From NCBI GenBank assembly GCA_019694875.1, contig JAIBBC010000001.1, positions 1,178,001 through 1,242,000 on the forward strand: a stretch of 64,000 nt of DNA, written 5' to 3'. Source of the DNA: Cyclobacteriaceae bacterium. GTDB taxonomy: Bacteria; Bacteroidota; Bacteroidia; Cytophagales; Cyclobacteriaceae. Of the stretch, positions 12,941 through 31,395 are shown one piece after another (position 1 is the first letter of the stretch; each line of letters opens with the position of its first letter). Both the position numbers and the translations under genes were made by a program. Below the pieces are notes generated by a model, which saw only the letters and a list, made by a program, of their open reading frames with translations, was not told the DNA's origin and did not search any database.

Positions 12941-12943
12941 CAC

Positions 12944-12970: not shown

Positions 12971-13012
12971 CTAGCTTATCGAAATCGCGGTTTTAAAAAT
13001 TTTTGCTCCCGA

Positions 13013-13020
13013 TAATTTTG
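13013..13020 (+). promoter_or_regulatory. candidate -7 promoter element for the 280-aa gene
   Basis: The octamer taattttg matches the Bacteroidota -7 consensus TAnnTTTG and lies 39 bp before the ATG at 13059. The matching -33 region would fall at about 12987-12993, right at the duplication edge, and shows no clear TTG. The copy at 21752-21759 has the same -7 box but different upstream DNA. Confidence 0.4.
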
Positions 13021-13058
13021 TGCGAGGGGGGCTAGAATAAATCCTAAATAGTGTACCC

Positions 13059-13901
13059 ATGAATATTTCGGCAATTAAAAAAGCTGTAAGAATAGTAAGT
13101 TACTATTCCTCGTCAATAAGTGAGGAGGATAAAATTGTCAAAGAGTTACTTGATCCAAATAATGATATTCTGAACAACTATCTGTATCCATTTTGTGACG
13201 AACTTAACATCAATTTGTTAACCCTAGAGAGCGCAAATGCGAAAATGGATTTCATTAAGTTTTGCGTTTTCGAATTCATTGAATTACAAATGTTCTTCAA
13301 AAGCAATCGCAAACTCTTAGAGGACGGTTACCGAAGCGTCGATAATACAGGTAAAAAATTTGCTTCATCGAAAGACGATAGGGAGTTTGAAGAAATCGAA
13401 AATTATATAGTTATCAGTTATGAGCTAATAGATATGCTGTTCAACGAGATAGCGCTATGCTGTTTTAAATACAAAATTGATTTATATGGAATTTGCAAGG
13501 AGTTACAATTTGATCATAGCTTTATTGATACCAGTCTCTATGCTCATTTAGTAGGAAGAACTGACGGAAAACGTAACAGTACCTCTGGTTCCGGTTTTCA
13601 AGCTTACCTAAAAAAAGACAGAAAAAATCTTAACTCACGACTAGTGAAGTTGTATAAAAATTGCAAACCTGAGTCGATTGCCTACATGCTCTTCGCACTA
13701 GTCGAACTTCACCTGCTAGACAAAGCCGTTCTAACAAACAAATCAAAGTTGCACTTCGTACTGGTGGAAAATTTTGGACGAATTGGTACTCGTCAAAATC
13801 TTAATGCTAATATCAATAAACTTTGGAATCCTGATGACTATCAGATCAATCAAATTGAAGTCTACAAAAAGGAAATCCAGGCAGTATTAAGACAGAAGTA
13901 A
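13059..13901 (+). CDS. uncharacterised element protein, possibly RteC-like regulator (copy 1)
   Basis: A 280-residue, helix-rich, lysine- and leucine-rich soluble protein with no signal peptide or transmembrane segment. I do not recognise a firm family. The size, the position directly upstream of an excisionase-like gene and a C-terminal stretch that could fold as a winged helix (about residues 205-260, SIAYMLFALVELHLLD then FGRIGTRQNLNANINKL) recall RteC, the regulator of excision genes in Bacteroides conjugative transposons, but sequence support is weak. The identical copy is at 21798-22640. Confidence 0.75.
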   Translation: MNISAIKKAVRIVSYYSSSISEEDKIVKELLDPNNDILNNYLYPFCDELNINLLTLESANAKMDFIKFCVFEFIELQMFFKSNRKLLEDGYRSVDNTGKKFASSKDDREFEEIENYIVISYELIDMLFNEIALCCFKYKIDLYGICKELQFDHSFIDTSLYAHLVGRTDGKRNSTSGSGFQAYLKKDRKNLNSRLVKLYKNCKPESIAYMLFALVELHLLDKAVLTNKSKLHFVLVENFGRIGTRQNLNANINKLWNPDDYQINQIEVYKKEIQAVLRQK

Positions 13902-13974
13902 CTTGCTATTTTTTTGCTGAAAAAATTGCAAATCGGATTTTGCAAACCTTGCCTACGCTTAAAAATGACAGGCA

Positions 13975-14256
13975 ATGACAGAGAATCCATTTGAAACCAT
14001 TGACGGCCGACTAATTAAAATAGAAGGTCTTTTGCAATTTCTAACTCAAAGCGTATCTATTGAAAAAGACCTATCAGCTAGGGATGTAGGCGGACTGGAG
14101 ATCGCAGTCCAAGAAACGGGCCTATCAACTCATAGCATTTACCGCCTAGTCAGCGAACGAAAAATCCCGCATTCCAAAAAAGGCGGGCGACTGTATTTCA
14201 GCCGTAAAGCTTTACAAAGGTGGATTGAGGAAGGGCAGCGGAGCATCAAAAAGTGA
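13975..14256 (+). CDS. excisionase-like helix-turn-helix protein (copy 1)
   Basis: A 93-residue DNA-binding protein. A helical N-terminal part of about 40 residues is followed by a winged HTH of the HTH_17/excisionase type (about residues 44-88: TGLSTHSIYRLVSERKIPHSKKGGRLYFSRKALQRWIEEG). Such proteins act as excisionases or regulators in Bacteroidota integrative elements. Its stop overlaps the GTG start of rep as GTGA, implying translational coupling. The start is ATG at 13975; an ATG at 13965 is out of frame. Confidence 0.87.
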   Translation: MTENPFETIDGRLIKIEGLLQFLTQSVSIEKDLSARDVGGLEIAVQETGLSTHSIYRLVSERKIPHSKKGGRLYFSRKALQRWIEEGQRSIKK

Positions 14257-15323
14257 GTTCTATACGCTCTAACGCATCGCGAGATGCGATCCTCCTCGAT
14301 ACATTAGCACAAAAGCGGACAACTTCAAACTCGGGCTTTGAAAGACCGCCTCTTGTAATGTATGGCGATGGGTCAGATTTGAGAAATGTTGAAGCGTTAG
14401 CGAGTCGGTCGAAACGAAAAGCAATTACGCGAGTGATGGTTTTGAGCCTCATTGACGTTGCAACAAAAAAGAAGAAGGGAGATCGCGTTAAGGCTTATTG
14501 GAATACCTATCACTGCCAGAACAGGATAGTCACGCATGACGGCAAGTTGCATACCACATATTGCAAAAACAGGTTTTGCACCGTATGCCTGAGCATACGC
14601 AAAGCAACGATCATGAATAACTACTTGCCATACTTACAGACGTGGGAAGACGCGTATTTTTTGACGCTCACGGTTAAGGCGATTCCCGCGTATAAGTTGC
14701 CGAGGTATGTAAACGGTATGTTAGAATTGTTCGGAAAAATCATTGATAAATATAGGAAGAAAGATAAACGGAGGAAGGGCTTTGCACTGGAGGGTATACG
14801 TTCGTTAGAGTGCAATTTCAATCCCGTAAAAAGAACGTATAATCCTCACTTCCATATTCTGGTACGAAACAGAGAGATGGGGGAAATTCTGCTCACGGAA
14901 TGGCTCACCAGGTTTCCGAGAAAACACGTTAGTCCACTGGCTCAAAAGCTTGTAAAAGTCGAGGACAGGGAGCGAGCATTGATAGAGATTGTTAAGTATG
15001 GAAGTAAAATATTCACCGAGCCGGACTTAAAAATGGCGACAAGAAAAACGAGCAGGTATATATATGTTTCAGCATTGGATAACATTTTTTCTGCTATGCA
15101 GGGGCGAAGGATTTTCGATCGATTTGGATTTAACTTGCCTGAGCAAAGGACGCCAGAACCCAAACAAAATTTTAGGATACTGGTAGATTACGAAAATTGG
15201 CTTTATACACCGAAGCTTTTTGATTGGGTTAACATCGACTCAGGAGAAACGCTATCGGGATACCAACTGACCAACGAATTAAAGGATATTTTGAGTAATC
15301 GAATTGATTGCGACTTACAGTAG
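14253..15323 (+). CDS. rep: rolling-circle replication initiator (Rep_1/HUH) (copy 1)
   Basis: A 356-residue protein resembling the pC194/pUB110-type Rep family. A Cys cluster (C88, C104, C109, C112; CKNRFCTVC) matches the family's N-terminal zinc-binding motif. Motif 1 is FLTLT at 136-140, motif 2 is the metal-binding HUH at H199-F200-H201 (PHFHILV), and motif 3 is KYGSK with Tyr249 as the likely nicking residue and Lys252. Such an enzyme nicks one strand at an origin and starts rolling-circle replication, so the excised element may replicate as a circle. It starts at GTG and is coupled to the upstream HTH gene. The identical copy is at 22992-24062. Confidence 0.88.
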   Translation: MSSIRSNASRDAILLDTLAQKRTTSNSGFERPPLVMYGDGSDLRNVEALASRSKRKAITRVMVLSLIDVATKKKKGDRVKAYWNTYHCQNRIVTHDGKLHTTYCKNRFCTVCLSIRKATIMNNYLPYLQTWEDAYFLTLTVKAIPAYKLPRYVNGMLELFGKIIDKYRKKDKRRKGFALEGIRSLECNFNPVKRTYNPHFHILVRNREMGEILLTEWLTRFPRKHVSPLAQKLVKVEDRERALIEIVKYGSKIFTEPDLKMATRKTSRYIYVSALDNIFSAMQGRRIFDRFGFNLPEQRTPEPKQNFRILVDYENWLYTPKLFDWVNIDSGETLSGYQLTNELKDILSNRIDCDLQ

Positions 15324-15420
15324 ACATTTACAAGCAGCACCCTGTCAATGCTGAACAAGTGATTTTCCGGATATTATATTCCATATTCATGCGATGGCAG
15401 CGGCAGGATCTATCGATGAA

Positions 15421-16566
15421 CTATTTGGGTGCAAGTTTCTTATTCAAATATTCGTGCATCTGGTAGACCGAAATTGTCTCAAAAATTACCTTATGATTTC
15501 TATCAAGAAGAAGATAAACTGGCACGGCCTGTATGTCAAGTGTCTTTTTTAACAAGTAATCCTTATCTATAAATTGCGCCCATGAGGTGTTGTCCTTTGC
15601 TACCGATGCCTTCCATTTTTTAGCGTCAACGTCAATCGTAATCCCAAGTATTTCAATCCGATCATTAAACTCTTTGTAGAGTTGCGGCAGTTCATTTCTG
15701 TTCGCATATCGACAGGGTGAACACCACGAGGCCCAAAAATCGATTAGTAAGTACTCTGATTTAAAATCGTATAAGTTTTTTTTCTTACCTGATGCAGAAA
15801 TCAGTTGAACGTTGGGTAGTAAAATATCCTTTCGATCAGACCGTTTTGCTCGTGAGAGCTCCCGTGTAGTCCTTACCAGGATTAGATCTTGGTTGGAGAC
15901 TTTGGCCAAGTATTTTTCTGTGGTTGCGCTATCAAGTTTTCCAAAATTTGCTTCAAATAACAGTTGAAGCCCCATCAGGATAGATGTTGACGACTTGGCT
16001 GTATCAAGGGCTGCCAAAATCTTTGGTTTGAGTTGGTCAACAGTTTTCATCCAAACCGGCATCAGACGTTGTTTATATTCCTGCTCACGCGTCGGATTTC
16101 TATGAATTGAATCCACTAGCGTTTTCTCAAGATTATAAAATGGCTTCTGAAGGTCTGTGAACCATTGAATGCCGGACGTTGCGGGGCCGGAATATTTAGA
16201 AGAGTAAAATAATGAATCTGCGAAACCGTGTAGAGTCACTGCCCTTCCACTTTCTGTAGAGACGTATACGAAATTCTTTTGCAATGTCCCATAAGTCGAA
16301 AACAGACTACCGCCTTTAACAGGTAAATGCAGCTTGTAGAGAAGGTCTTGGGGACTCGTTTTAGGGAACGCATAATAAAACGAACCGTCAGGCCTTATTT
16401 CAATACTGTCATAAAGTTCTGGTGGATGTGGATCAATATAATTGTGTTTCAGTATATAAAGTTTCGTCTGGAAATTCGCAGAAGGTTTAATTTGACCTTT
16501 GATGATGGTTTGAGCTATTATAGTGTTAGAGTAACAAATGAAAAAAAGTGCAAGAAGAACTCTCAT
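15421..16566 (-). CDS. exported TlpA-like thioredoxin-fold protein (copy 1)
   Basis: A 381-residue protein with a signal peptide (MRVLLALFFICYSNTIIAQ). Its N-terminal beta-domain of about 90 residues resembles the DUF4369-type domain that precedes many Bacteroidota TlpA proteins. A helical linker and a C-terminal thioredoxin fold (about 250-378) follow, with redox motif WCSPC (Cys282, Cys285) and a cis-Pro region (IQAVPVY). It should act in the periplasm on disulfides. Its neighbours are an ABC exporter and a lipoprotein with six C-terminal cysteines, a likely substrate (inference). The identical copy is at 24160-25305. Confidence 0.88.
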   Translation of the reverse strand: MRVLLALFFICYSNTIIAQTIIKGQIKPSANFQTKLYILKHNYIDPHPPELYDSIEIRPDGSFYYAFPKTSPQDLLYKLHLPVKGGSLFSTYGTLQKNFVYVSTESGRAVTLHGFADSLFYSSKYSGPATSGIQWFTDLQKPFYNLEKTLVDSIHRNPTREQEYKQRLMPVWMKTVDQLKPKILAALDTAKSSTSILMGLQLLFEANFGKLDSATTEKYLAKVSNQDLILVRTTRELSRAKRSDRKDILLPNVQLISASGKKKNLYDFKSEYLLIDFWASWCSPCRYANRNELPQLYKEFNDRIEILGITIDVDAKKWKASVAKDNTSWAQFIDKDYLLKKTLDIQAVPVYLLLDRNHKVIFETISVYQMHEYLNKKLAPK

Positions 16567-16579
16567 AAGGTGAAATTTA

Positions 16580-16606
16580 AAGGGTTCAGGTAGTTCCTGA
16601 ACCCTT
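16580..16606 (-). terminator. 11-bp hairpin upstream of the TlpA-like gene (copy 1)
   Basis: A perfect 11-bp inverted repeat (aagggttcagg at 16580-16590, cctgaaccctt at 16596-16606) with a 5-base loop. On the minus strand the following sequence is A/T-rich (TTAAATTTCA) rather than a pure T-run. It lies between the small membrane gene and the TlpA-like gene, 14 bp before the latter's start, so it may attenuate read-through or stabilise RNA. Copy 2 is at 25319-25345. Confidence 0.6.
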
Positions 16607-16676
16607 ATTTATCAAAACTATTGCGCAAAACCCTAGCTAGGGCCTTCCACTCAGATCGTCTAAATGATCTTTCCAT
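16605..16676 (-). CDS. possible 23-residue basic peptide ORF (copy 1)
   Basis: A tiny ORF, MERSFRRSEWKALARVLRNSFDK, that ends at the 11-bp hairpin in the 155-bp gap between the small membrane gene and the TlpA-like gene. It is basic and could form an amphipathic helix. I see no strong ribosome-binding site, and an ORF of this size is expected by chance, so this is only a candidate. Copy 2 is at 25344-25415. Confidence 0.2.
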   Translation of the reverse strand: MERSFRRSEWKALARVLRNSFDK

Positions 16677-16722
16677 CACTCGGATTTACCAATGCATGAG
16701 GCATTTTCGAGAAGAAGAAATG

Positions 16723-16929
16723 TTATGAACCCTCTCCTACTCGTGAAATACCATTTTTGTGTTTTAGATAAAAAATGATAAACAAAATAACGGCAATTGG
16801 TGGTGCCAGTATGGAAACAACATACAGAGAAACTTTAAGATCACGATTGATATTTGACCTGTAGGTAAGAACTATTGTAGCAATCATTAGAATGATGGTG
16901 ACAATAAACACGATATATATTTCATTCAT
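16723..16929 (-). CDS. small two-helix membrane protein (copy 1)
   Basis: A 68-residue protein with two hydrophobic helices (about residues 3-22 and 34-55) linked by a polar RSNINRDLK loop and a short charged tail. No enzyme motif. The second half (SILAPPIAVILFIIFYLKHK) loosely resembles PLDc_N-type anchors. It starts 4 bases after the permease stop, so it is probably co-transcribed, and it may be an accessory or immunity-type subunit of the ABC system (inference). Copy 2 is at 25462-25668. Confidence 0.7.
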   Translation of the reverse strand: MNEIYIVFIVTIILMIATIVLTYRSNINRDLKVSLYVVSILAPPIAVILFIIFYLKHKNGISRVGEGS

Positions 16930-16933
16930 AAGA

Positions 16934-17704
16934 TTAATCGCTTAAGGGTTTAAATTGAGTGCTTGAGAAAATACTTCTAAATAGAATAAGCCCGACAGCA
17001 CAAACGAGTACTAGTGCAACAACCTCGAGTAAATTGGATGAGAGCGCATTAAAGTAAACGGTTGACCGGTGTGTCTCAAATTTTGTGTATAAACTTTTTG
17101 GTATCTGCATGGGCAAATACTTGAGGTGAATGCCGTAGAAACCTTTAACCAACGTTACAGCAATGCTTTCAACAAATGACCATCCAAGGTAAATTATAAT
17201 CGAAACTGTCGCAGATCGCAAAATTAATACGAGAATCAGAAGAATCGCGCACTGTAAAAAAGTTGAAATTGCGAACTGTGCTATAAACAATCCGAAATAG
17301 GCAGGGTCAACTGAAAGGAATTTGTACGGTGAAAACTGAATCGAAATAAAAAATGTTAAAGCTGCCAGAATTGTAAAGATGAAGGTTACAAGTATGCAGT
17401 AAAGCAGTTTTGAATCGAAGTAGTACGTCCGGGATTTGATGAAAACAATCTTGTTCACATGACCGTTTGCAAACTCGGTTCCGATTACTAACAATATCCA
17501 AACAGGGACAAAAAAGTAAGATTGAGCATATACCAATATTGCATTGGCCACCTTGTCAGGAAACAGGCCTTCCGGAACATTGTCGGTTGTCGCTGTAAGA
17601 TGAGAAACGATTTTCAAGATGACAGGGAACAGGCAGACCGTGAAGATCAGTAATATCAGAGATAGACGGGATCGAAATAGCTTATGTAGTTCAAGCCTTA
17701 GCAT
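16934..17704 (-). CDS. ABC-2 type transporter permease (copy 1)
   Basis: A 256-residue integral membrane protein with about six hydrophobic segments. It begins with MLRLELHKLFRSRLSLILLI, the amphipathic start typical of BcrB/ABC-2 permeases. It would form the membrane part of an exporter with the ATPase encoded immediately upstream, whose gene it overlaps by 14 bases. BcrAB-like pairs export or give self-protection against peptides; the substrate here is unknown. Copy 2 is at 25673-26443. Confidence 0.85.
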   Translation of the reverse strand: MLRLELHKLFRSRLSLILLIFTVCLFPVILKIVSHLTATTDNVPEGLFPDKVANAILVYAQSYFFVPVWILLVIGTEFANGHVNKIVFIKSRTYYFDSKLLYCILVTFIFTILAALTFFISIQFSPYKFLSVDPAYFGLFIAQFAISTFLQCAILLILVLILRSATVSIIIYLGWSFVESIAVTLVKGFYGIHLKYLPMQIPKSLYTKFETHRSTVYFNALSSNLLEVVALVLVCAVGLILFRSIFSSTQFKPLSD

Positions 17705-18377
17705 TCACATTGGATTTAAAAATGGCAACGTAACCTTCCTCCAGGGTACCATAGTCCCGCAGCAAGTCTTTAACAGTCGTACTACGAACGATTTGACCGT
17801 CTTTCAAGAATAGTATTCTATCGCAAACTCTCTCAAGGTCGGAGAATACGTGACTTGTTACCAAAAAAGATGCCCCCCCGTTACGGGCCTTAGCAATGAG
17901 ATTTCTCAGGGAGATTATAGAATCGATATCCAGATGGTTTGTTGGTTCATCAAGCAAGAACAATGAGTATTGTTTCATAAAGGCACATGCTAAGGCAACA
18001 CGTTGCTTCATTCCCGCTGAAAGTTCACCGAACCTTTTGTTACCAAAGTCGATGAAAAACTCGTCTTTGGCAGTGCTTACGGACAATCTGTCTACGCCAA
18101 TAACATTAGCATACATCAAAAGATTATTATCAACAGTCATATCTGTGAAAAAACCTTTTCTCGAAATAGCTGCTGAGATAGCGTGCTTTTCTGAATAATT
18201 TAAAGTTCCGCTCGTAGCTTTAACCATTCCAATGATAATGTTAAGAAGTGTAGTTTTTCCGGCTCCATTTGGGCCGACCAAGCCTACCACTTCATTATCC
18301 TGAATAACAAACGATAAATTATTCAAAACGACTTTGCTGCCAAATTTCTTGTTTATTGAATTTACCTCGAGTTTCAT
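17691..18377 (-). CDS. ABC transporter ATP-binding protein (copy 1)
   Basis: A 228-residue ATPase of the BcrA-like family, with Walker A GPNGAGKT at 35-42, signature LSAGM at 119-123 (Ala where LSGGQ has Gly), Walker B LFLLDEP at about 139-145 and a switch His in VTSHVF. It lacks fused membrane segments, so it needs the ABC-2 permease that follows. A strong hairpin lies between it and the upstream lipoprotein gene, so its expression may depend on read-through. Copy 2 is at 26430-27116. Confidence 0.93.
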   Translation of the reverse strand: MKLEVNSINKKFGSKVVLNNLSFVIQDNEVVGLVGPNGAGKTTLLNIIIGMVKATSGTLNYSEKHAISAAISRKGFFTDMTVDNNLLMYANVIGVDRLSVSTAKDEFFIDFGNKRFGELSAGMKQRVALACAFMKQYSLFLLDEPTNHLDIDSIISLRNLIAKARNGGASFLVTSHVFSDLERVCDRILFLKDGQIVRSTTVKDLLRDYGTLEEGYVAIFKSNVNAKA

Positions 18378-18392
18378 TCGTTCTAAGAAAAA

Positions 18393-18422
18393 GAAAGCTA
18401 AGGGCTAAATGCCTTAGCTTTC
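18393..18422 (-). terminator. terminator/attenuator between lipoprotein gene and ABC operon (copy 1)
   Basis: A perfect 11-bp stem (gaaagctaagg at 18393-18403, ccttagctttc at 18412-18422) with an 8-base loop. On the minus strand it is followed at once by a T-rich tail (TTTTTCTT). It sits 9 bases after the lipoprotein stop and 15 bases before the ATPase start, so it would let the lipoprotein be made in excess of the transporter. Copy 2 is at 27132-27161. Confidence 0.78.
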
Positions 18423-18431
18423 ATTTGGTAT

Positions 18432-19085
18432 TTATGAGGCTGGTACCGGGTTTACTACGCAATCGTCAATAATACATGATGCTACTTCCATAGCGAGACA
18501 TTCCATAAACACAACATAGCAAGCAGTTTTTTCCAGCCAGTTCATTTGTTCAATTCTTGCTCCTGCACATCCAAGCGGGCCATCATCAGCAGTCCAATCA
18601 CCACATTCCGGCTCGGCCTCTCTGGCAAGTTGGTTCTTTATGGTGACTTTTGAAACGATTTTTGATTCTTGTAAATCAACCTGAAAGCTGCCGGAACGGT
18701 CTCCGAACTTCAATGTACCGTCAAATTGTTCGTTCAGCATTTTGTCCAGCACTTGCTGCGGGGTAATTGTCGTGACCGCTTCAAAGGAAAAGACCTTACG
18801 GATGCGTTGTTTTTCGTCAAAAATAGCCATTACAAACTTTTCACCATCGCGGCCTTTAAATGGAACAACTAAAGCTTCCTCCGTTGGGCTTGTAAAATGT
18901 GAGTGACTTGTCTGCAACTCATTAATATTCACTTCAATCTCATTGAACTTTTTAGAGGATAGTACCATGTCCGTAAGTTCATCCAAAGATTTCCGCCTCG
19001 GTGACAAATCCTGTTGCGGGTCACAGGAAAACGTTACTACTGCAATCAACAATAATGTGATTGCTTTACTTGATAATTTTACCAT
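18432..19085 (-). CDS. lipoprotein with six-cysteine C-terminal tail, unknown function (copy 1)
   Basis: 217 residues from the ATG at 19085 (MVKLSSKAITLLLIAVVTFSC), which gives a clean lipobox with Cys about residue 21. The frame is open to 19196, but that extension has no signal features. The middle (about 25-155) is a charged, soluble domain. The last ~55 residues hold six cysteines (PEC, LGC, TAC, MEC, ASC, DDC contexts) within a partly hydrophobic segment, suggesting three disulfides. No family recognised. It is encoded first, ahead of the ABC exporter and TlpA-like genes, and could be a secreted peptide precursor or the system's sensor or substrate. Copy 2 is at 27171-27824. Confidence 0.75.
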   Translation of the reverse strand: MVKLSSKAITLLLIAVVTFSCDPQQDLSPRRKSLDELTDMVLSSKKFNEIEVNINELQTSHSHFTSPTEEALVVPFKGRDGEKFVMAIFDEKQRIRKVFSFEAVTTITPQQVLDKMLNEQFDGTLKFGDRSGSFQVDLQESKIVSKVTIKNQLAREAEPECGDWTADDGPLGCAGARIEQMNWLEKTACYVVFMECLAMEVASCIIDDCVVNPVPAS

Positions 19086-19161
19086 AGGTATTTTGGGTTT
19101 AGCTGCCAAAAATCTGTTTGGCGCAGTTACCCACAAGAAATAACAAATGTTCAATCTATAA

Positions 19162-19178
19162 ATGGGAGTAACTCCCAT
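19162..19178. promoter_or_regulatory. palindromic operator-like site 1 (copy 1)
   Basis: A perfect 17-nt palindrome atgggagtaactcccat, 77 bp upstream of the lipoprotein start. It shares the core ggagtWactcc with a second palindrome at 19560-19574. Paired sites with a common core suggest a dimeric regulator. Copy 2 is at 27901-27917. Confidence 0.6.
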
Positions 19179-19315
19179 GACATTTAGGCGCGTCAAAATT
19201 TGTCCATTAAAGAGCCTTCTTGACCCTTAAATAAGTCGTTTGAAGAAACGCCTCTGACAACTTATCCGAATTATTTCTTGAATGAGGTGTAGTGATTGAG
19301 TAGACTTTTAATACT

Positions 19316-19519
19316 TCAATAATATGGGCTGGCCTGTTCGATAAACTCGGCTTCTAAGTCTGCTTTTAAATCCTCTACGTTGTGGTATTCCGTTTCTTTG
19401 TAGATGATACGCTGATGTTGCCTAATTAATTCAGCGGCAAAGCGCAAGTATTTGTTTCGTATAACGTAATCCCAATCGCCATACGTCAATAAAACTTCTG
19501 TCAGGTCTGGAAAAATCAT
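19316..19519 (-). CDS. small acidic protein, hypothetical (copy 1)
   Basis: A 67-residue protein, MIFPDLTEVLLTYGDWDYVIRNKYLRFAAELIRQ and onward, acidic at the C-terminus (DLKADLEAEFIEQ). No transmembrane segment or recognised family. It lies alone between the lipoprotein gene and the divergent hsdM, with an operator-like palindrome 41 bp upstream of its start. It might be a regulator or antitoxin-sized partner, but nothing in the sequence proves this. Copy 2 is at 28055-28258. Confidence 0.55.
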   Translation of the reverse strand: MIFPDLTEVLLTYGDWDYVIRNKYLRFAAELIRQHQRIIYKETEYHNVEDLKADLEAEFIEQASPYY

Positions 19520-19559
19520 CTGTGAATGAAATAGAAATTCAAAAAAGCCTAGCCTGCTA

Positions 19560-19574
19560 TAGGAGTTACTCCTA
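19560..19574. promoter_or_regulatory. palindromic operator-like site 2 (copy 1)
   Basis: A 15-nt palindrome taggagttactccta in the divergent region between the 67-aa gene and hsdM (114 bp before the hsdM start). It has the same ggagtWactcc core as site 1, so one regulator may control both the restriction genes and the lipoprotein cluster. Copy 2 is at 28299-28313. Confidence 0.6.
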
Positions 19575-19687
19575 CCGGAAAATGTTAACGAGTGCCTATT
19601 TGACCACCGTCAACGGAAAATTCTCCACCTGGACTTACCCCTGAGGTTGCAATAAAAGTAGTATTTTTAAAATCAGTCGAAAACTAG

Positions 19688-21439
19688 ATGAAGAACTTTA
19701 AAGAAAAGGCAAACTTCCTGTGGAGCATTGCTGACCTGCTCAGAGGGCATTACAAACAAGCGGATTATGGAAAAGTGATTTTGCCACTCACAGTTTTAAG
19801 ACGACTTGACTTTGTGCTCGAACCCACCAAAAAGAAAGTTTTAGAAGCATATCAACAGCACAAAGGGAAAAAACCGGAGGTACTGGAGGAGGTGCTAAAT
19901 CGCGTTGCAAAGGTAAAGTTTCACAATCGAAGCAAGTTCGATTTTTACGAGTTGGCAAAAGATCATAACAACGTTGCAGCAAACCTCCGCAATTACATTA
20001 AAGGCTTTTCGATCAGCGCAACTGAGATAATTGAATATTTCAGTTTTGATGACCAAATCAAGAAACTGGACGAATTCGATTTACTTTACATGGTTGTAAA
20101 GAAATTTGCCGAAGCGGGCGAAATGTTCAAAGATGTTTCATCGCTCGAAATGGGATACATCTTTGAGGAACTTATTCGCAAATTCGCTGAACTCAGCAAC
20201 GAAACAGCCGGAGAGCACTTCACCCCAAGAGAGGTAATTAGGCTAATGGTGAATTTGCTTTTTGTGAATGACAAAGACATTCTCCGCAAGAAAGGAATTG
20301 TAAAAACACTCTACGATCCAGCGTGCGGAACAGGTGGAATGCTAAGCGTAGCGGAGGAGTATTTGCAAGAACTAAATCCCGATGCAAAACTGGAAGTGTT
20401 CGGCCAGGAACTAAATCCTGAATCGTATGCAATTTGCAAATCGGATATGCTCATAAAGGGACAAAACCCCGGCAATATAAAATTCGGAAACAGCTTTACA
20501 CAGGATGGTCTGGAGGATGAAACCTTTGATTACATGCTGAGCAACCCACCTTTTGGCGTGGAGTGGAAAAAAGCAGAGAAACAAATCAAAGATGAATTTG
20601 CCACAAAAGGTTTTGCCGGAAGGTTCGGCGCAGGGCTTCCTCCTATCAGCGATGGTTCATTGTTGTTTTTGCAGCACATGATTAGCAAAATGAAGAAGGA
20701 GAACAAAGGCGGTAGCAGAATAGCCATCGTTTTCAACGGTTCTCCGCTTTTTAGTGGAGGCGCGGGAAGTGGGCCGAGCGACATACGTAAATGGATAATA
20801 GAAAACGATATGCTGGAAGCGATTGTAGCACTTCCAGACCAGCTTTTTTACAATACGGGTATTTCAACGTACATCTGGATTGTAACAGACAGAAAGGAGC
20901 GAAATCGAAAGGGAAAAGTGCAACTTATAAACGCAACGGGCAGCGGCCAGGACGACAAAGCCAATCCGTTTTATTCGAAGATGCTGCGCAGTTTGGGGAA
21001 TAAGCGAAAAGAAATTCATGAACAGGCCATTCAGCGTATCACCGAGATTTACGGAGAGTTTAAAGAAACCCTCTATTGCAAGATTTTTGACAATAACGAT
21101 TTTGGTTACTTGCGGATAACAGTTGAACGGCCAAAGCGAAACGAAAAAGGGGAAGTCGAAATTGACAAGAAAGGAAACCCGCTTGCAGATTCAGACATGA
21201 GAGATTTTGAAAACGTGCCTCTAAAAGAAAATGTGGAGAGCTATTTTAAGCGCGAAGTATTGCCACATTTGCCCGATGCATGGATTGACCACAGCAAAAC
21301 CAAAACGGGCTATGAGATTAACTTCACCAAGTATTTTTATCAATACAAACCGCTTCGCAGTTTAACAGAAATACGAAAAGATATTTTGGCATTGGAAGAA
21401 GAAACCGTTAACATAGTCAAAGAGGTTATTAACGGATGA
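19688..21439 (+). CDS. hsdM: type I restriction-modification DNA methyltransferase HsdM (copy 1)
   Basis: A 583-residue N6-adenine methyltransferase subunit. The N-terminal helical HsdM_N domain (about 5-150) precedes the SAM-dependent catalytic domain with motif I DPACGTGG at 210-217 and motif IV NPPF at 286-289. The C-terminal part is long, helical and charged. It works with HsdS to methylate the recognition site and with HsdR to restrict unmodified DNA. The stop overlaps the hsdS start by 4 bases (ATGA). In this copy the downstream hsdS is truncated by the duplication junction. Copy 2 is at 28427-30178. Confidence 0.96.
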   Translation: MKNFKEKANFLWSIADLLRGHYKQADYGKVILPLTVLRRLDFVLEPTKKKVLEAYQQHKGKKPEVLEEVLNRVAKVKFHNRSKFDFYELAKDHNNVAANLRNYIKGFSISATEIIEYFSFDDQIKKLDEFDLLYMVVKKFAEAGEMFKDVSSLEMGYIFEELIRKFAELSNETAGEHFTPREVIRLMVNLLFVNDKDILRKKGIVKTLYDPACGTGGMLSVAEEYLQELNPDAKLEVFGQELNPESYAICKSDMLIKGQNPGNIKFGNSFTQDGLEDETFDYMLSNPPFGVEWKKAEKQIKDEFATKGFAGRFGAGLPPISDGSLLFLQHMISKMKKENKGGSRIAIVFNGSPLFSGGAGSGPSDIRKWIIENDMLEAIVALPDQLFYNTGISTYIWIVTDRKERNRKGKVQLINATGSGQDDKANPFYSKMLRSLGNKRKEIHEQAIQRITEIYGEFKETLYCKIFDNNDFGYLRITVERPKRNEKGEVEIDKKGNPLADSDMRDFENVPLKENVESYFKREVLPHLPDAWIDHSKTKTGYEINFTKYFYQYKPLRSLTEIRKDILALEEETVNIVKEVING

Positions 21440-21735: not shown

Positions 21736-21751
21736 AAATTTTTGCTCCCGA

Positions 21752-21759
21752 TAATTTTG
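21752..21759 (+). promoter_or_regulatory. candidate -7 promoter element for the 280-aa gene (copy 2)
   Basis: The same taattttg box as at 13013-13020. Here the DNA further upstream is hsdS coding sequence, so the promoter context, and possibly its strength, differs from copy 1. Confidence 0.35.
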
Positions 21760-21797
21760 TGCGAGGGGGGCTAGAATAAATCCTAAATAGTGTACCC

Positions 21798-22640: not shown

Positions 22641-22713
22641 CTTGCTATTTTTTTGCTGAAAAAATTGCAAATCGGATTTTGCAAACCTTGCCTACGCTTA
22701 AAAATGACAGGCA

Positions 22714-24062: not shown

Positions 24063-24159
24063 ACATTTACAAGCAGCACCCTGTCAATGCTGAACAAGTG
24101 ATTTTCCGGATATTATATTCCATATTCATGCGATGGCAGCGGCAGGATCTATCGATGAA

Positions 24160-25305
24160 CTATTTGGGTGCAAGTTTCTTATTCAAATATTCGTGCATCT
24201 GGTAGACCGAAATTGTCTCAAAAATTACCTTATGATTTCTATCAAGAAGAAGATAAACTGGCACGGCCTGTATGTCAAGTGTCTTTTTTAACAAGTAATC
24301 CTTATCTATAAATTGCGCCCATGAGGTGTTGTCCTTTGCTACCGATGCCTTCCATTTTTTAGCGTCAACGTCAATCGTAATCCCAAGTATTTCAATCCGA
24401 TCATTAAACTCTTTGTAGAGTTGCGGCAGTTCATTTCTGTTCGCATATCGACAGGGTGAACACCACGAGGCCCAAAAATCGATTAGTAAGTACTCTGATT
24501 TAAAATCGTATAAGTTTTTTTTCTTACCTGATGCAGAAATCAGTTGAACGTTGGGTAGTAAAATATCCTTTCGATCAGACCGTTTTGCTCGTGAGAGCTC
24601 CCGTGTAGTCCTTACCAGGATTAGATCTTGGTTGGAGACTTTGGCCAAGTATTTTTCTGTGGTTGCGCTATCAAGTTTTCCAAAATTTGCTTCAAATAAC
24701 AGTTGAAGCCCCATCAGGATAGATGTTGACGACTTGGCTGTATCAAGGGCTGCCAAAATCTTTGGTTTGAGTTGGTCAACAGTTTTCATCCAAACCGGCA
24801 TCAGACGTTGTTTATATTCCTGCTCACGCGTCGGATTTCTATGAATTGAATCCACTAGCGTTTTCTCAAGATTATAAAATGGCTTCTGAAGGTCTGTGAA
24901 CCATTGAATGCCGGACGTTGCGGGGCCGGAATATTTAGAAGAGTAAAATAATGAATCTGCGAAACCGTGTAGAGTCACTGCCCTTCCACTTTCTGTAGAG
25001 ACGTATACGAAATTCTTTTGCAATGTCCCATAAGTCGAAAACAGACTACCGCCTTTAACAGGTAAATGCAGCTTGTAGAGAAGGTCTTGGGGACTCGTTT
25101 TAGGGAACGCATAATAAAACGAACCGTCAGGCCTTATTTCAATACTGTCATAAAGTTCTGGTGGATGTGGATCAATATAATTGTGTTTCAGTATATAAAG
25201 TTTCGTCTGGAAATTCGCAGAAGGTTTAATTTGACCTTTGATGATGGTTTGAGCTATTATAGTGTTAGAGTAACAAATGAAAAAAAGTGCAAGAAGAACT
25301 CTCAT
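24160..25305 (-). CDS. exported TlpA-like thioredoxin-fold protein (copy 2)
   Basis: Identical to 15421-16566: signal peptide, N-terminal beta domain, and thioredoxin domain with WCSPC at residues 281-285. Last gene of the copy 2 exporter cluster. Confidence 0.88.
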   Translation of the reverse strand: MRVLLALFFICYSNTIIAQTIIKGQIKPSANFQTKLYILKHNYIDPHPPELYDSIEIRPDGSFYYAFPKTSPQDLLYKLHLPVKGGSLFSTYGTLQKNFVYVSTESGRAVTLHGFADSLFYSSKYSGPATSGIQWFTDLQKPFYNLEKTLVDSIHRNPTREQEYKQRLMPVWMKTVDQLKPKILAALDTAKSSTSILMGLQLLFEANFGKLDSATTEKYLAKVSNQDLILVRTTRELSRAKRSDRKDILLPNVQLISASGKKKNLYDFKSEYLLIDFWASWCSPCRYANRNELPQLYKEFNDRIEILGITIDVDAKKWKASVAKDNTSWAQFIDKDYLLKKTLDIQAVPVYLLLDRNHKVIFETISVYQMHEYLNKKLAPK

Positions 25306-25318
25306 AAGGTGAAATTTA

Positions 25319-25345
25319 AAGGGTTCAGGTAGTTCCTGAACCCTT
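25319..25345 (-). terminator. 11-bp hairpin upstream of the TlpA-like gene (copy 2)
   Basis: Same inverted repeat as 16580-16606, between the small membrane gene and the TlpA-like gene. Confidence 0.6.
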
Positions 25346-25461
25346 ATTTATCAAAACTATTGCGCAAAACCCTAGCTAGGGCCTTCCACTCAGATCGTCT
25401 AAATGATCTTTCCATCACTCGGATTTACCAATGCATGAGGCATTTTCGAGAAGAAGAAATG

Positions 25462-25668
25462 TTATGAACCCTCTCCTACTCGTGAAATACCATTTTTGTG
25501 TTTTAGATAAAAAATGATAAACAAAATAACGGCAATTGGTGGTGCCAGTATGGAAACAACATACAGAGAAACTTTAAGATCACGATTGATATTTGACCTG
25601 TAGGTAAGAACTATTGTAGCAATCATTAGAATGATGGTGACAATAAACACGATATATATTTCATTCAT
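25462..25668 (-). CDS. small two-helix membrane protein (copy 2)
   Basis: Identical 68-residue product to 16723-16929, following the permease gene by 4 bases. Confidence 0.7.
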   Translation of the reverse strand: MNEIYIVFIVTIILMIATIVLTYRSNINRDLKVSLYVVSILAPPIAVILFIIFYLKHKNGISRVGEGS

Positions 25669-25672
25669 AAGA

Positions 25673-26443
25673 TTAATCGCTTAAGGGTTTAAATTGAGTG
25701 CTTGAGAAAATACTTCTAAATAGAATAAGCCCGACAGCACAAACGAGTACTAGTGCAACAACCTCGAGTAAATTGGATGAGAGCGCATTAAAGTAAACGG
25801 TTGACCGGTGTGTCTCAAATTTTGTGTATAAACTTTTTGGTATCTGCATGGGCAAATACTTGAGGTGAATGCCGTAGAAACCTTTAACCAACGTTACAGC
25901 AATGCTTTCAACAAATGACCATCCAAGGTAAATTATAATCGAAACTGTCGCAGATCGCAAAATTAATACGAGAATCAGAAGAATCGCGCACTGTAAAAAA
26001 GTTGAAATTGCGAACTGTGCTATAAACAATCCGAAATAGGCAGGGTCAACTGAAAGGAATTTGTACGGTGAAAACTGAATCGAAATAAAAAATGTTAAAG
26101 CTGCCAGAATTGTAAAGATGAAGGTTACAAGTATGCAGTAAAGCAGTTTTGAATCGAAGTAGTACGTCCGGGATTTGATGAAAACAATCTTGTTCACATG
26201 ACCGTTTGCAAACTCGGTTCCGATTACTAACAATATCCAAACAGGGACAAAAAAGTAAGATTGAGCATATACCAATATTGCATTGGCCACCTTGTCAGGA
26301 AACAGGCCTTCCGGAACATTGTCGGTTGTCGCTGTAAGATGAGAAACGATTTTCAAGATGACAGGGAACAGGCAGACCGTGAAGATCAGTAATATCAGAG
26401 ATAGACGGGATCGAAATAGCTTATGTAGTTCAAGCCTTAGCAT
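25673..26443 (-). CDS. ABC-2 type transporter permease (copy 2)
   Basis: Identical 256-residue product to 16934-17704, again overlapping the ATPase gene by 14 bases. Confidence 0.85.
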   Translation of the reverse strand: MLRLELHKLFRSRLSLILLIFTVCLFPVILKIVSHLTATTDNVPEGLFPDKVANAILVYAQSYFFVPVWILLVIGTEFANGHVNKIVFIKSRTYYFDSKLLYCILVTFIFTILAALTFFISIQFSPYKFLSVDPAYFGLFIAQFAISTFLQCAILLILVLILRSATVSIIIYLGWSFVESIAVTLVKGFYGIHLKYLPMQIPKSLYTKFETHRSTVYFNALSSNLLEVVALVLVCAVGLILFRSIFSSTQFKPLSD

Positions 26444-27116
26444 TCACATTGGATTTAAAAATGGCAACGTAACCTTCCTCCAGGGTACCATAGTCCCGCA
26501 GCAAGTCTTTAACAGTCGTACTACGAACGATTTGACCGTCTTTCAAGAATAGTATTCTATCGCAAACTCTCTCAAGGTCGGAGAATACGTGACTTGTTAC
26601 CAAAAAAGATGCCCCCCCGTTACGGGCCTTAGCAATGAGATTTCTCAGGGAGATTATAGAATCGATATCCAGATGGTTTGTTGGTTCATCAAGCAAGAAC
26701 AATGAGTATTGTTTCATAAAGGCACATGCTAAGGCAACACGTTGCTTCATTCCCGCTGAAAGTTCACCGAACCTTTTGTTACCAAAGTCGATGAAAAACT
26801 CGTCTTTGGCAGTGCTTACGGACAATCTGTCTACGCCAATAACATTAGCATACATCAAAAGATTATTATCAACAGTCATATCTGTGAAAAAACCTTTTCT
26901 CGAAATAGCTGCTGAGATAGCGTGCTTTTCTGAATAATTTAAAGTTCCGCTCGTAGCTTTAACCATTCCAATGATAATGTTAAGAAGTGTAGTTTTTCCG
27001 GCTCCATTTGGGCCGACCAAGCCTACCACTTCATTATCCTGAATAACAAACGATAAATTATTCAAAACGACTTTGCTGCCAAATTTCTTGTTTATTGAAT
27101 TTACCTCGAGTTTCAT
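26430..27116 (-). CDS. ABC transporter ATP-binding protein (copy 2)
   Basis: Identical 228-residue BcrA-like ATPase to 17691-18377, with the same Walker A, LSAGM signature and Walker B motifs. Confidence 0.93.
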   Translation of the reverse strand: MKLEVNSINKKFGSKVVLNNLSFVIQDNEVVGLVGPNGAGKTTLLNIIIGMVKATSGTLNYSEKHAISAAISRKGFFTDMTVDNNLLMYANVIGVDRLSVSTAKDEFFIDFGNKRFGELSAGMKQRVALACAFMKQYSLFLLDEPTNHLDIDSIISLRNLIAKARNGGASFLVTSHVFSDLERVCDRILFLKDGQIVRSTTVKDLLRDYGTLEEGYVAIFKSNVNAKA

Positions 27117-27131
27117 TCGTTCTAAGAAAAA

Positions 27132-27161
27132 GAAAGCTAAGGGCTAAATGCCTTAGCTTTC
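27132..27161 (-). terminator. terminator/attenuator between lipoprotein gene and ABC operon (copy 2)
   Basis: Same 11-bp perfect stem and T-rich tail as 18393-18422. Confidence 0.78.
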
Positions 27162-27170
27162 ATTTGGTAT

Positions 27171-27824
27171 TTATGAGGCTGGTACCGGGTTTACTACGCA
27201 ATCGTCAATAATACATGATGCTACTTCCATAGCGAGACATTCCATAAACACAACATAGCAAGCAGTTTTTTCCAGCCAGTTCATTTGTTCAATTCTTGCT
27301 CCTGCACATCCAAGCGGGCCATCATCAGCAGTCCAATCACCACATTCCGGCTCGGCCTCTCTGGCAAGTTGGTTCTTTATGGTGACTTTTGAAACGATTT
27401 TTGATTCTTGTAAATCAACCTGAAAGCTGCCGGAACGGTCTCCGAACTTCAATGTACCGTCAAATTGTTCGTTCAGCATTTTGTCCAGCACTTGCTGCGG
27501 GGTAATTGTCGTGACCGCTTCAAAGGAAAAGACCTTACGGATGCGTTGTTTTTCGTCAAAAATAGCCATTACAAACTTTTCACCATCGCGGCCTTTAAAT
27601 GGAACAACTAAAGCTTCCTCCGTTGGGCTTGTAAAATGTGAGTGACTTGTCTGCAACTCATTAATATTCACTTCAATCTCATTGAACTTTTTAGAGGATA
27701 GTACCATGTCCGTAAGTTCATCCAAAGATTTCCGCCTCGGTGACAAATCCTGTTGCGGGTCACAGGAAAACGTTACTACTGCAATCAACAATAATGTGAT
27801 TGCTTTACTTGATAATTTTACCAT
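27171..27824 (-). CDS. lipoprotein with six-cysteine C-terminal tail (copy 2)
   Basis: Identical 217-residue product to 18432-19085 when started at the ATG at 27824; lipobox and six C-terminal cysteines are conserved because the copies are identical. Confidence 0.75.
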   Translation of the reverse strand: MVKLSSKAITLLLIAVVTFSCDPQQDLSPRRKSLDELTDMVLSSKKFNEIEVNINELQTSHSHFTSPTEEALVVPFKGRDGEKFVMAIFDEKQRIRKVFSFEAVTTITPQQVLDKMLNEQFDGTLKFGDRSGSFQVDLQESKIVSKVTIKNQLAREAEPECGDWTADDGPLGCAGARIEQMNWLEKTACYVVFMECLAMEVASCIIDDCVVNPVPAS

Positions 27825-27900
27825 AGGTATTTTGGGTTTAGCTGCCAAAAATCTGTTTGGCGCAGTTACCCACAAGAAATAACAAATGTTCAATCTATAA

Positions 27901-27917
27901 ATGGGAGTAACTCCCAT
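27901..27917. promoter_or_regulatory. palindromic operator-like site 1 (copy 2)
   Basis: Same 17-nt palindrome as 19162-19178, upstream of the copy 2 lipoprotein gene. Confidence 0.6.
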
Positions 27918-28054
27918 GACATTTAGGCGCGTCAAAATTTGTCCATTAAAGAGCCTTCTTGACCCTTAAATAAGTCGTTTGAAGAAACGCCTCTGACAAC
28001 TTATCCGAATTATTTCTTGAATGAGGTGTAGTGATTGAGTAGACTTTTAATACT

Positions 28055-28258
28055 TCAATAATATGGGCTGGCCTGTTCGATAAACTCGGCTTCTAAGTCT
28101 GCTTTTAAATCCTCTACGTTGTGGTATTCCGTTTCTTTGTAGATGATACGCTGATGTTGCCTAATTAATTCAGCGGCAAAGCGCAAGTATTTGTTTCGTA
28201 TAACGTAATCCCAATCGCCATACGTCAATAAAACTTCTGTCAGGTCTGGAAAAATCAT
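28055..28258 (-). CDS. small acidic protein, hypothetical (copy 2)
   Basis: Identical 67-residue product to 19316-19519, divergent from hsdM. Confidence 0.55.
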   Translation of the reverse strand: MIFPDLTEVLLTYGDWDYVIRNKYLRFAAELIRQHQRIIYKETEYHNVEDLKADLEAEFIEQASPYY

Positions 28259-28298
28259 CTGTGAATGAAATAGAAATTCAAAAAAGCCTAGCCTGCTA

Positions 28299-28313
28299 TA
28301 GGAGTTACTCCTA
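28299..28313. promoter_or_regulatory. palindromic operator-like site 2 (copy 2)
   Basis: Same 15-nt palindrome as 19560-19574, upstream of the copy 2 hsdM, which heads the only intact hsdM-hsdS-hsdR operon. Confidence 0.6.
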
Positions 28314-28426
28314 CCGGAAAATGTTAACGAGTGCCTATTTGACCACCGTCAACGGAAAATTCTCCACCTGGACTTACCCCTGAGGTTGCAATAAAAGTAG
28401 TATTTTTAAAATCAGTCGAAAACTAG

Positions 28427-30178
28427 ATGAAGAACTTTAAAGAAAAGGCAAACTTCCTGTGGAGCATTGCTGACCTGCTCAGAGGGCATTACAAACAAGC
28501 GGATTATGGAAAAGTGATTTTGCCACTCACAGTTTTAAGACGACTTGACTTTGTGCTCGAACCCACCAAAAAGAAAGTTTTAGAAGCATATCAACAGCAC
28601 AAAGGGAAAAAACCGGAGGTACTGGAGGAGGTGCTAAATCGCGTTGCAAAGGTAAAGTTTCACAATCGAAGCAAGTTCGATTTTTACGAGTTGGCAAAAG
28701 ATCATAACAACGTTGCAGCAAACCTCCGCAATTACATTAAAGGCTTTTCGATCAGCGCAACTGAGATAATTGAATATTTCAGTTTTGATGACCAAATCAA
28801 GAAACTGGACGAATTCGATTTACTTTACATGGTTGTAAAGAAATTTGCCGAAGCGGGCGAAATGTTCAAAGATGTTTCATCGCTCGAAATGGGATACATC
28901 TTTGAGGAACTTATTCGCAAATTCGCTGAACTCAGCAACGAAACAGCCGGAGAGCACTTCACCCCAAGAGAGGTAATTAGGCTAATGGTGAATTTGCTTT
29001 TTGTGAATGACAAAGACATTCTCCGCAAGAAAGGAATTGTAAAAACACTCTACGATCCAGCGTGCGGAACAGGTGGAATGCTAAGCGTAGCGGAGGAGTA
29101 TTTGCAAGAACTAAATCCCGATGCAAAACTGGAAGTGTTCGGCCAGGAACTAAATCCTGAATCGTATGCAATTTGCAAATCGGATATGCTCATAAAGGGA
29201 CAAAACCCCGGCAATATAAAATTCGGAAACAGCTTTACACAGGATGGTCTGGAGGATGAAACCTTTGATTACATGCTGAGCAACCCACCTTTTGGCGTGG
29301 AGTGGAAAAAAGCAGAGAAACAAATCAAAGATGAATTTGCCACAAAAGGTTTTGCCGGAAGGTTCGGCGCAGGGCTTCCTCCTATCAGCGATGGTTCATT
29401 GTTGTTTTTGCAGCACATGATTAGCAAAATGAAGAAGGAGAACAAAGGCGGTAGCAGAATAGCCATCGTTTTCAACGGTTCTCCGCTTTTTAGTGGAGGC
29501 GCGGGAAGTGGGCCGAGCGACATACGTAAATGGATAATAGAAAACGATATGCTGGAAGCGATTGTAGCACTTCCAGACCAGCTTTTTTACAATACGGGTA
29601 TTTCAACGTACATCTGGATTGTAACAGACAGAAAGGAGCGAAATCGAAAGGGAAAAGTGCAACTTATAAACGCAACGGGCAGCGGCCAGGACGACAAAGC
29701 CAATCCGTTTTATTCGAAGATGCTGCGCAGTTTGGGGAATAAGCGAAAAGAAATTCATGAACAGGCCATTCAGCGTATCACCGAGATTTACGGAGAGTTT
29801 AAAGAAACCCTCTATTGCAAGATTTTTGACAATAACGATTTTGGTTACTTGCGGATAACAGTTGAACGGCCAAAGCGAAACGAAAAAGGGGAAGTCGAAA
29901 TTGACAAGAAAGGAAACCCGCTTGCAGATTCAGACATGAGAGATTTTGAAAACGTGCCTCTAAAAGAAAATGTGGAGAGCTATTTTAAGCGCGAAGTATT
30001 GCCACATTTGCCCGATGCATGGATTGACCACAGCAAAACCAAAACGGGCTATGAGATTAACTTCACCAAGTATTTTTATCAATACAAACCGCTTCGCAGT
30101 TTAACAGAAATACGAAAAGATATTTTGGCATTGGAAGAAGAAACCGTTAACATAGTCAAAGAGGTTATTAACGGATGA
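28427..30178 (+). CDS. hsdM: type I restriction-modification DNA methyltransferase HsdM (copy 2)
   Basis: Identical 583-residue product to 19688-21439 (DPACGTGG at 210-217, NPPF at 286-289). This copy is followed by full-length hsdS and hsdR with 4-base overlaps, so it belongs to the complete operon. The cell would have two hsdM genes for one hsdS and one hsdR. Confidence 0.96.
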   Translation: MKNFKEKANFLWSIADLLRGHYKQADYGKVILPLTVLRRLDFVLEPTKKKVLEAYQQHKGKKPEVLEEVLNRVAKVKFHNRSKFDFYELAKDHNNVAANLRNYIKGFSISATEIIEYFSFDDQIKKLDEFDLLYMVVKKFAEAGEMFKDVSSLEMGYIFEELIRKFAELSNETAGEHFTPREVIRLMVNLLFVNDKDILRKKGIVKTLYDPACGTGGMLSVAEEYLQELNPDAKLEVFGQELNPESYAICKSDMLIKGQNPGNIKFGNSFTQDGLEDETFDYMLSNPPFGVEWKKAEKQIKDEFATKGFAGRFGAGLPPISDGSLLFLQHMISKMKKENKGGSRIAIVFNGSPLFSGGAGSGPSDIRKWIIENDMLEAIVALPDQLFYNTGISTYIWIVTDRKERNRKGKVQLINATGSGQDDKANPFYSKMLRSLGNKRKEIHEQAIQRITEIYGEFKETLYCKIFDNNDFGYLRITVERPKRNEKGEVEIDKKGNPLADSDMRDFENVPLKENVESYFKREVLPHLPDAWIDHSKTKTGYEINFTKYFYQYKPLRSLTEIRKDILALEEETVNIVKEVING

Positions 30179-31395
30179 AGCGTTATCAGAAATATAAGCC
30201 AACCGGAATCGATTGGATTGGAGAAATTCCAAGTCACTGGGAACTAATTAAGGGTAAATACATTTTTGATTTTATAAATGGATTTCCATTTGATTCAAAA
30301 AAATTCAGTTTTAATCCAGAGTCAGGATTGCCTTTAATTAGAATAAGAGATATTCAAAATCATTATTCGGAAACTTATTGGGATGGAGAAGAGATCGTTG
30401 AAGCATTAGTTGACAATGGGGATATTCTCATTGGAATGGACGGAGATTTCAATATTTCAAAATGGCAAGGAGGGAAAGCCTTGCTGAATCAGAGGGTATG
30501 TAAAATACTTGGAACTAAAGTTCACAACAGCTACTTACTCTATATTCTTCCATTTAGCTTAAAAGTTATTAATGATTTGACTTATTATACCACTGTCAAG
30601 CACTTGTCCAACGAAGATTTGTGGAATGATGTTTTTCCAATACCAGAATTAGAAGAACAAACTGCAATCGCCAATTTCCTTGATGACAAAACTGCAAACA
30701 TTGATAAACTCATCTCCAATAAGCAGAAGCTAATTGAGCTTTTGAAGGAAGAAAGGACAGCAATAATTAATGAAGCAGTTAGCGGGAAAGGAAGGAATTG
30801 GGGGAAGAAAAAGTTGAAGTATGTGGCAAAGAAAGTTCAGACAGGAAGCACACCACCTTCTAACGAGGAGCAATATTATGTTGACGAAATCAAATGGTTT
30901 ACTCCCTCTGATTTTTCCGATGATTTGTTTCTTCAAAATTCAAAACGAAAAATTGCGGAGTTGGCTGTAACGAATGGAATAGTAAAGAGATTTCCGGCAA
31001 ACTCCGTTTTGTTTGTCGGCATTGGTGCCACACTTGGAAAGGTTGGTTTTATTCTTGAGCCTGCTACATCAAACCAACAAATAAATTGCCTTTCATTTCA
31101 CAGTGAAGAAGAAGCGATCTTTTACGCAAATTATTTTTATTCAAATCAACCAAACATTATTGCACTTGCTAATGCGGCAACTTTGGCAATCTTAAATCAA
31201 AGTCAAATGAAAGATATTATTCTTCCAGTTCCATCATCGTTTGATGAATTGAAAGAAGCGGTTCAAAATATTCAAACCGAAGCTCAACGCATTGACAACA
31301 CCGTTTCAAAAATTGAGAGAGAAATAGAATTGATGAATGAATACAGAACAGCATTGATTAGCGAGGTAGTAACTGGAAAAGTAAAAGTAGCATGA
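30175..31395 (+). CDS. hsdS: type I restriction-modification specificity subunit HsdS
   Basis: A 406-residue specificity subunit with two target-recognition domains. The first begins with YKPTGIDWIGEIPSHWE (about residues 6-25) and is followed by a conserved helical spacer (about 160-205, LEEQTAIANFLDDKTANIDKLISNKQKLIELLKEERTAII). The second domain (about 215-350) and a final helix (about 355-400, with YRTALISEVVTGKV) complete the protein. It sets the bipartite DNA site for HsdM and HsdR. The first ~97 codons are inside the duplicated unit. It overlaps hsdM and hsdR by 4 bases each. Confidence 0.95.
   Translation: MKRYQKYKPTGIDWIGEIPSHWELIKGKYIFDFINGFPFDSKKFSFNPESGLPLIRIRDIQNHYSETYWDGEEIVEALVDNGDILIGMDGDFNISKWQGGKALLNQRVCKILGTKVHNSYLLYILPFSLKVINDLTYYTTVKHLSNEDLWNDVFPIPELEEQTAIANFLDDKTANIDKLISNKQKLIELLKEERTAIINEAVSGKGRNWGKKKLKYVAKKVQTGSTPPSNEEQYYVDEIKWFTPSDFSDDLFLQNSKRKIAELAVTNGIVKRFPANSVLFVGIGATLGKVGFILEPATSNQQINCLSFHSEEEAIFYANYFYSNQPNIIALANAATLAILNQSQMKDIILPVPSSFDELKEAVQNIQTEAQRIDNTVSKIEREIELMNEYRTALISEVVTGKVKVA

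Follow-up and report, generated by a model that had tools for sequence, protein, structure and literature searches.

Does the integrated element of this Cyclobacteriaceae bacterium contain two identical copies of an 8.7-kb segment, and are these copies of recent origin? The element lies at a transfer RNA (tRNA) gene, tRNA-Val, in the 64,000-nucleotide stretch of contig JAIBBC010000001.1 analysed here (the window, numbered from its first letter). An initial annotation had described a perfect 8,739-bp tandem repeat in it, to be taken either as a real duplication or as an assembly error. This choice is too simple: the junction between the copies can be real and their number a convention of the assembler. 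The explanation that we consider probable is that a loop in a k=127 de Bruijn graph was written twice over a real head-to-tail junction, which an ordinary rearrangement would have created and which leaves the copy number unfixed. The repeat is written as follows.

12987-21725, plus strand: the unit, first written copy (exact repeat, k-mer comparison).
21726-30464, plus strand: the unit, second written copy (exact repeat, k-mer comparison).
21726-21727, no strand: the new junction (GC common), where hsdS codon 97 is fused to 47 bp after the integrase gene, int.

In an exact direct repeat search of the window, bases 12987-21727 were letter-identical to bases 21726-30466, a run of 8,741 bases at an offset of 8,739, which confirmed the perfect repeat with GC edges. 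The only other exact direct repeat of at least 31 bases was the 44-bp att pair, at an offset of 23,078. As sequence, the 8,739-bp repeat is far beyond chance. Open reading frames (ORFs) of at least 90 amino acids in the unit reappeared at +8,739 with identical proteins, as had been claimed, and the reported content of the unit (rep, a helix-turn-helix (HTH) gene, an ABC/thioredoxin cluster, hsdM and 97 codons of hsdS) was borne out by ORF and family matches. A 200-base query across the new join (21725/21726) gave one full-length match in the bacterium's own genome and two half matches; the latter were expected because they are the outer edges of the repeat. The repeat is direct and head-to-tail with one new junction, as in a microhomology tandem duplication.

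The GC dinucleotide, present at 12987-12988, 21726-21727 and 30465-30466, is the sole exact sharing at the three edges. The proposal that no long flanking repeat was involved held, and that of GC as the only shared sequence held for exact matches and was refined: in the 12 bases ending in GC, nine positions agree between the edges. Of 20,000 random pairs drawn around both edges, 15 matched at 9 or more of 12 positions; this is a weak statistic, as the 12-base window was picked after the data had been seen, and it shows no more than the presence of a short imperfect homology. Short homology (GC exact, 9/12 imperfect) with no long flanking repeat is also what characterizes a microhomology tandem duplication.

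The ten contig ends of the genome (contigs C1 to C5) were compared in all 45 pairs and in both senses. Exactly 127 bases were common to three pairs (C2 end with C1 start, C1 end with C3 start, and C4 end with C5 start), and two of these three overlaps were flush. Tandem-repeat matches of up to 110 bp linked the C3 end with the C4 start, and no further pair shared 40 bp or more. The largest k-mer of SPAdes is 127, according to the passage of PMC5481147 that deals with it. The terminus of C5 lies in a 5S ribosomal RNA (rRNA) gene; it is identical to the rRNA operon of C1 for exactly 127 bases and then diverges. A query made of the visible 3' part of the 23S gene and the 5S gene gave a single full match, in C1, and a match of 145 bases at the C5 end; therefore, a second rRNA operon runs off the end of C5 and is unseen elsewhere in the assembly. 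This operon is visible solely as the 5S end at the C5 terminus (G000 C5 end, L040; L064).

An rRNA operon is about 5 kb long. The end overlaps, as in a k-mer graph assembly, and the operon cut exactly 127 bases into its identity with C1 point to a k=127 de Bruijn assembly, the assembler itself being one that we infer, that failed on a repeat of rRNA-operon size. Because the rRNA operon was left unresolved, it is very probable that the perfect 8.7-kb repeat was not spanned either. The initial annotation was right to doubt the assembly. More generally, when an assembly from a k-mer graph shows two perfect tandem copies, neither the number two nor a recent age is thereby proved, but the junction marks a rearrangement that deserves a check in raw reads; contig ends that overlap by exactly k, together with an rRNA operon cut exactly k bases in, provide a quick gauge of repeat-resolving power from sequence only.

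Several observations weigh against this account. Of the three 127-bp overlaps, one has C2 continuing 12 bases further and so is not flush. C1 continues across one rRNA operon, at which 5,000 bases are given as N; some longer-range data may have been used in the assembly, and another 23S copy could lie under the bases reading N. Finally, as the reasoning rests on the assembly rather than on reads, the junction could be a chimera and depth is not fixed. The 127-mer of the C1 end and C3 start was exact at those two ends only, with two weaker tRNA-like matches in C3.

The 16S rRNA gene was tried as a marker of collapsed repeats and dropped. The Rfam search (13 first-look candidates scored per genome) was blank in the bacterium's own genome but also in 16 of 17 genomes of the genus (a count that includes the bacterium's own), some of which consist of a single contig, and BLAST with the 16S gene of one relative found it in one of six genomes, the donor itself. 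The 5,000 N bases beside the visible 23S part of C1 probably explain the missing 16S.

The k-mer content of the possible arrangements was compared. With A and B as the flanks and U as the unit, A-U-U-B, A-U-U-U-B and A-U-B plus a circle of U had equal k-mer sets at each of the nine values of k tried (78 to 5001). Depth is therefore all that could separate a duplication, a triplication and a circle in a k-mer graph. According to the part of the GetOrganelle paper on tandem repeat contigs (PMC7488116), many bacterial genome assemblers simply give such a contig a multiplicity of two and pass through it twice. The 'exactly two' copies and their perfect identity are thus no evidence of copy number or recency, because they are expected whatever the true number. 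The age 'very recent', deduced earlier from perfect identity, fails for the same reason, since a de Bruijn assembly can write one graph path as both copies. The copies are probably near-identical, because a real difference should have branched the graph, and this does not set their age.

Exactly two copies fixed in the strain, with a perfect identity showing a very recent origin, would be a sub-case of a loop over a real junction (the odds of the two overlap and are not additive). The sequence as written agrees with it, but the assembly was very probably unable to count copies, and identity between copies is built in when one graph path is written twice; we regard this sub-case as unlikely. 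The presence of exactly two copies in the DNA molecule is not readable from this assembly. Assembly-graph loops walked twice, treated in the papers on GetOrganelle (PMC7488116) and DomCycle (PMC9104695), are a close parallel: the present repeat is longer than the apparent resolving length, its two copies are exactly identical and an rRNA operon is unresolved. The present case differs in that the loop is deduced from finished contigs, not from the graph or from reads.

A loop still requires the junction to be in the reads. The reads probably support one head-to-tail junction, from hsdS codon 97 to 47 bp after int; the joint between the copies is probably real and the exact doubling the assembler's choice. 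Alternatively, the junction would be false, the result of a misjoin or of chimeric molecules in the library; the real element would then have one unit and measure 14,339 bp. The edges indeed share almost nothing exactly (GC), as in chimeric ligation, but a contig built from a de Bruijn graph requires k-mers from reads that cover the join, and N is absent from the window. Low-coverage chimeric edges are usually removed by assemblers, and we hold a false junction to be very unlikely.

With a loop over a real junction, the following mechanism can be proposed. The reads would have been assembled into a k=127 de Bruijn graph that failed on repeats of rRNA-operon size; in it the unit would form one path, closed on itself by a loop-back edge at hsdS'::post-int, and the assembler would have written this path twice. 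This edge would reflect a real head-to-tail junction in the cultured strain, that of a tandem duplication or amplification in the chromosome, with a copy number and a frequency that the assembly leaves unmeasured. Illegitimate recombination would have produced the rearrangement, between two sites that have GC in common within a short imperfect homology. Both outer joins, on the int side and on the hsdS side, would be ancestral, and RecA would be expected to resolve the duplication. Of the possible causes, the likeliest is an ordinary event, duplication or amplification where homology is short and imperfect.

A review documents, in its section on the Staphylococcus aureus sdrM amplifications, tandem amplifications of 7-13 kb whose junctions show microhomology or lack homology (PMC11721125). 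As described there, these resemble the present repeat in size, head-to-tail layout and short or no junction homology; in contrast, the repeat in the window lies inside an integrated element, has no known selection and is of unmeasured copy number. A titles-level literature search on tandem duplication in integrative elements, SPAdes loops and excised circles returned nothing on point, which does not imply absence from print.

The element measures 23,078 bp as written and 14,339 bp if it has one unit. It has the integrase and the att repeats in a tRNA gene that define an integrative element. Its order is int, the unit (orf280 to hsdM, then the hsdS stub), the unit again, the remainder of hsdS and hsdR.

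11432-11475, no strand: attL, a 44-bp copy of the tRNA-Val 3' end, identical to 34510-34553.
11621-12940, plus strand: tyrosine integrase (int), outside the repeated unit (Phage_integrase, Phage_int_SAM_5, Arm-DNA-bind_5).
13059-13901, second copy 21798-22640, plus strand: orf280, without family match.
13975-14256, second copy 22714-22995, plus strand: HTH_17/excisionase-like protein (PF12728, phrog_66).
14253-15323, second copy 22992-24062, plus strand: Rep_1 HUH replication protein (Rep; PF01446, E 1.7e-10).
15421-16566, second copy 24160-25305, minus strand: thioredoxin-like protein (PF13905).
16934-18377, second copy 25673-27116, minus strand: membrane-protein-like ORF (by eye, no Pfam match) and ABC ATPase (PF00005).
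18432-19196, second copy 27171-27935, minus strand: 254-amino-acid Cys-rich protein with a lipoprotein-like stretch (by eye), without family match.
19688-21439, second copy 28427-30178, plus strand: hsdM (N6_Mtase, HsdM_N).
21436-21735, plus strand: hsdS stub of 99 amino acids, 97 hsdS codons plus 2 and a stop, created by the junction.
30175-31395, plus strand: intact hsdS, 406 amino acids (Methylase_S).
31392-34385, plus strand: hsdR (TIGR00348, below the curated cut-off; REase_I).
34510-34553, no strand: attR, inside tRNA-Val (34511-34586, minus strand), identical to attL.

The stub and the intact hsdS have their first 97 codons in common. One intact hsdM-hsdS-hsdR operon is left (28427-34385, from the second copy onward), and because it remains, the rearrangement would confer an extra dose of rep, the HTH gene, the ABC/thioredoxin cluster and hsdM, together with an hsdS stub.

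Five integrase relatives were fetched, from nine places outside the bacterium's own genome. In all five, an HTH gene lies downstream of int on the same strand, so that the left (int-side) join appears ancestral in layout; an ORF of at least 120 amino acids separates the two genes in four of them. The right (hsdS-side) join appears ancestral because hsdS is whole there. No match to the rep of the element was found in the five relatives. The window element thus resembles tRNA-integrated Bacteroidota islands (int, HTH, variable cargo) in having int then HTH on one strand, and its att repeat is a tRNA 3' end; it differs from them in using tRNA-Val and in carrying Rep_1 and a type I restriction-modification system. 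A tRNA-Thr (TGT) was present on the far side in four of the five fetched islands (L053, L055, L056, L057), and the window element is in tRNA-Val; the integrase family is shared and the tRNA target possibly different.

The initial annotation had called rep a rolling-circle gene and suggested Rep-driven over-replication as a possible origin of the repeat. In the Rep alignment (L023 omitted as partial), the residues of the HUH motif (H199, H201) and the Tyr (Y249) were invariant in 23 of 23 sequences; a predicted HUH Rep with its catalytic Tyr is what a rolling-circle replicon should encode. Relatives of 38-52% identity occur at 21 Bacteroidota loci. On plasmids, 102 records matched; among the 20 listed (26.8-29.2% identity), 19 are Bacteroides/Phocaeicola records at 4.6-11 kb and one is at 17 kb. 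The rep gene was found in none of the 16 other genus genomes and in one of the 147 other family genomes drawn. Phages gave two weak partial matches only, and a Rep pattern search of viral contigs gave none.

A site of Rep action was searched for around the edges and around rep. Strings like CTTGATA, which we take to be the pUB110/pC194-type origin motif, gave partial matches inside the unit and none at its edges; the longest, TCTTGATA, lies within the thioredoxin-like gene (15501-15508, minus strand). No inverted repeat was seen at 12987 among the five pairs shown, out of seven for the edge region. A 7-bp G/C hairpin at 12944-12970 ends 16 bp before the left edge; its fold was no better than shuffles, and the four edge folds (z-scores -1.46 to 1.74) were within or near the shuffled range. 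Words common around rep were compared in 17 loci, namely the window and 16 of the 22 relatives, the other six (L010, L015, L019, L020, L023, L026) being omitted as partial or distant. A/T runs headed the list; the best reached 14 of the 17 loci, compared with 10 in one shuffled set. None of the words was recognised as resembling an origin. A rolling-circle origin at the junction was accordingly rejected as a candidate after motif scan, inverted repeats, folding and word comparison. No recognisable origin or nick site was thus found at a unit edge; this result covers the edges and not the interior of the unit, where an origin could lie in rep or in another part.

These results bear on a further explanation, in which an 8.7-kb extrachromosomal circle carrying rep, the HTH gene and hsdM exists beside a single-copy chromosomal element, and the assembler merged both into a tandem pair. 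Circle plus chromosome would have the same k-mer set as the duplication, and the Rep_1 HUH protein of the unit, whose motif residues are invariant, is related to plasmid Reps. However, such a circle lacks int and att and is not the product of the integrase; no word near rep in the relatives was recognised as origin-like, and no fold stood out at the edges. In addition, the 11400-30466 region had no near DNA match in plasmids, and the junction sequence was not found in viral contigs. We consider such a circle unlikely. That the HUH Rep of the integrated element releases this sub-circle (rep, HTH, hsdM, without integrase or att), which would coexist as a plasmid-like amplifier of gene dose, seems quite unlikely. 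For the Rep-driven origin, the HUH motif and the invariant Tyr are kept, but nothing found ties the edges to Rep; overall, the earlier interpretation is partly supported.

No mobilization family was detected among the ten element proteins scanned in Pfam (hsdR was outside that scan); Rep might serve as the mobilization protein. An HsdM-like N6-methyltransferase match (27-29% identity) was present in the fetched flanks of five of the 22 Rep-relative loci (L004, L008, L012, L018, L021), which hints that rep with restriction-modification cargo may be a recurring layout in Bacteroidota islands.

At the limits used, orf280 matched nothing in Pfam, PHROGs, NCBIfam, PADLOC, PDB sequences or plasmids. 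Its slot between int and HTH is occupied by an ORF in four of the five integrase-relative loci, with no tblastn match to orf280, which suggests that this may be a variable position. The approximately 490 bp between the minus-strand cluster and hsdM (19197-19687) contain no listed ORF of at least 90 amino acids and may hold gene remnants. The best NCBIfam match of the ABC ATPase was a lantibiotic-protection family, below cut-off; the minus-strand cluster (15421-19196) is possibly a peptide export or immunity cluster.

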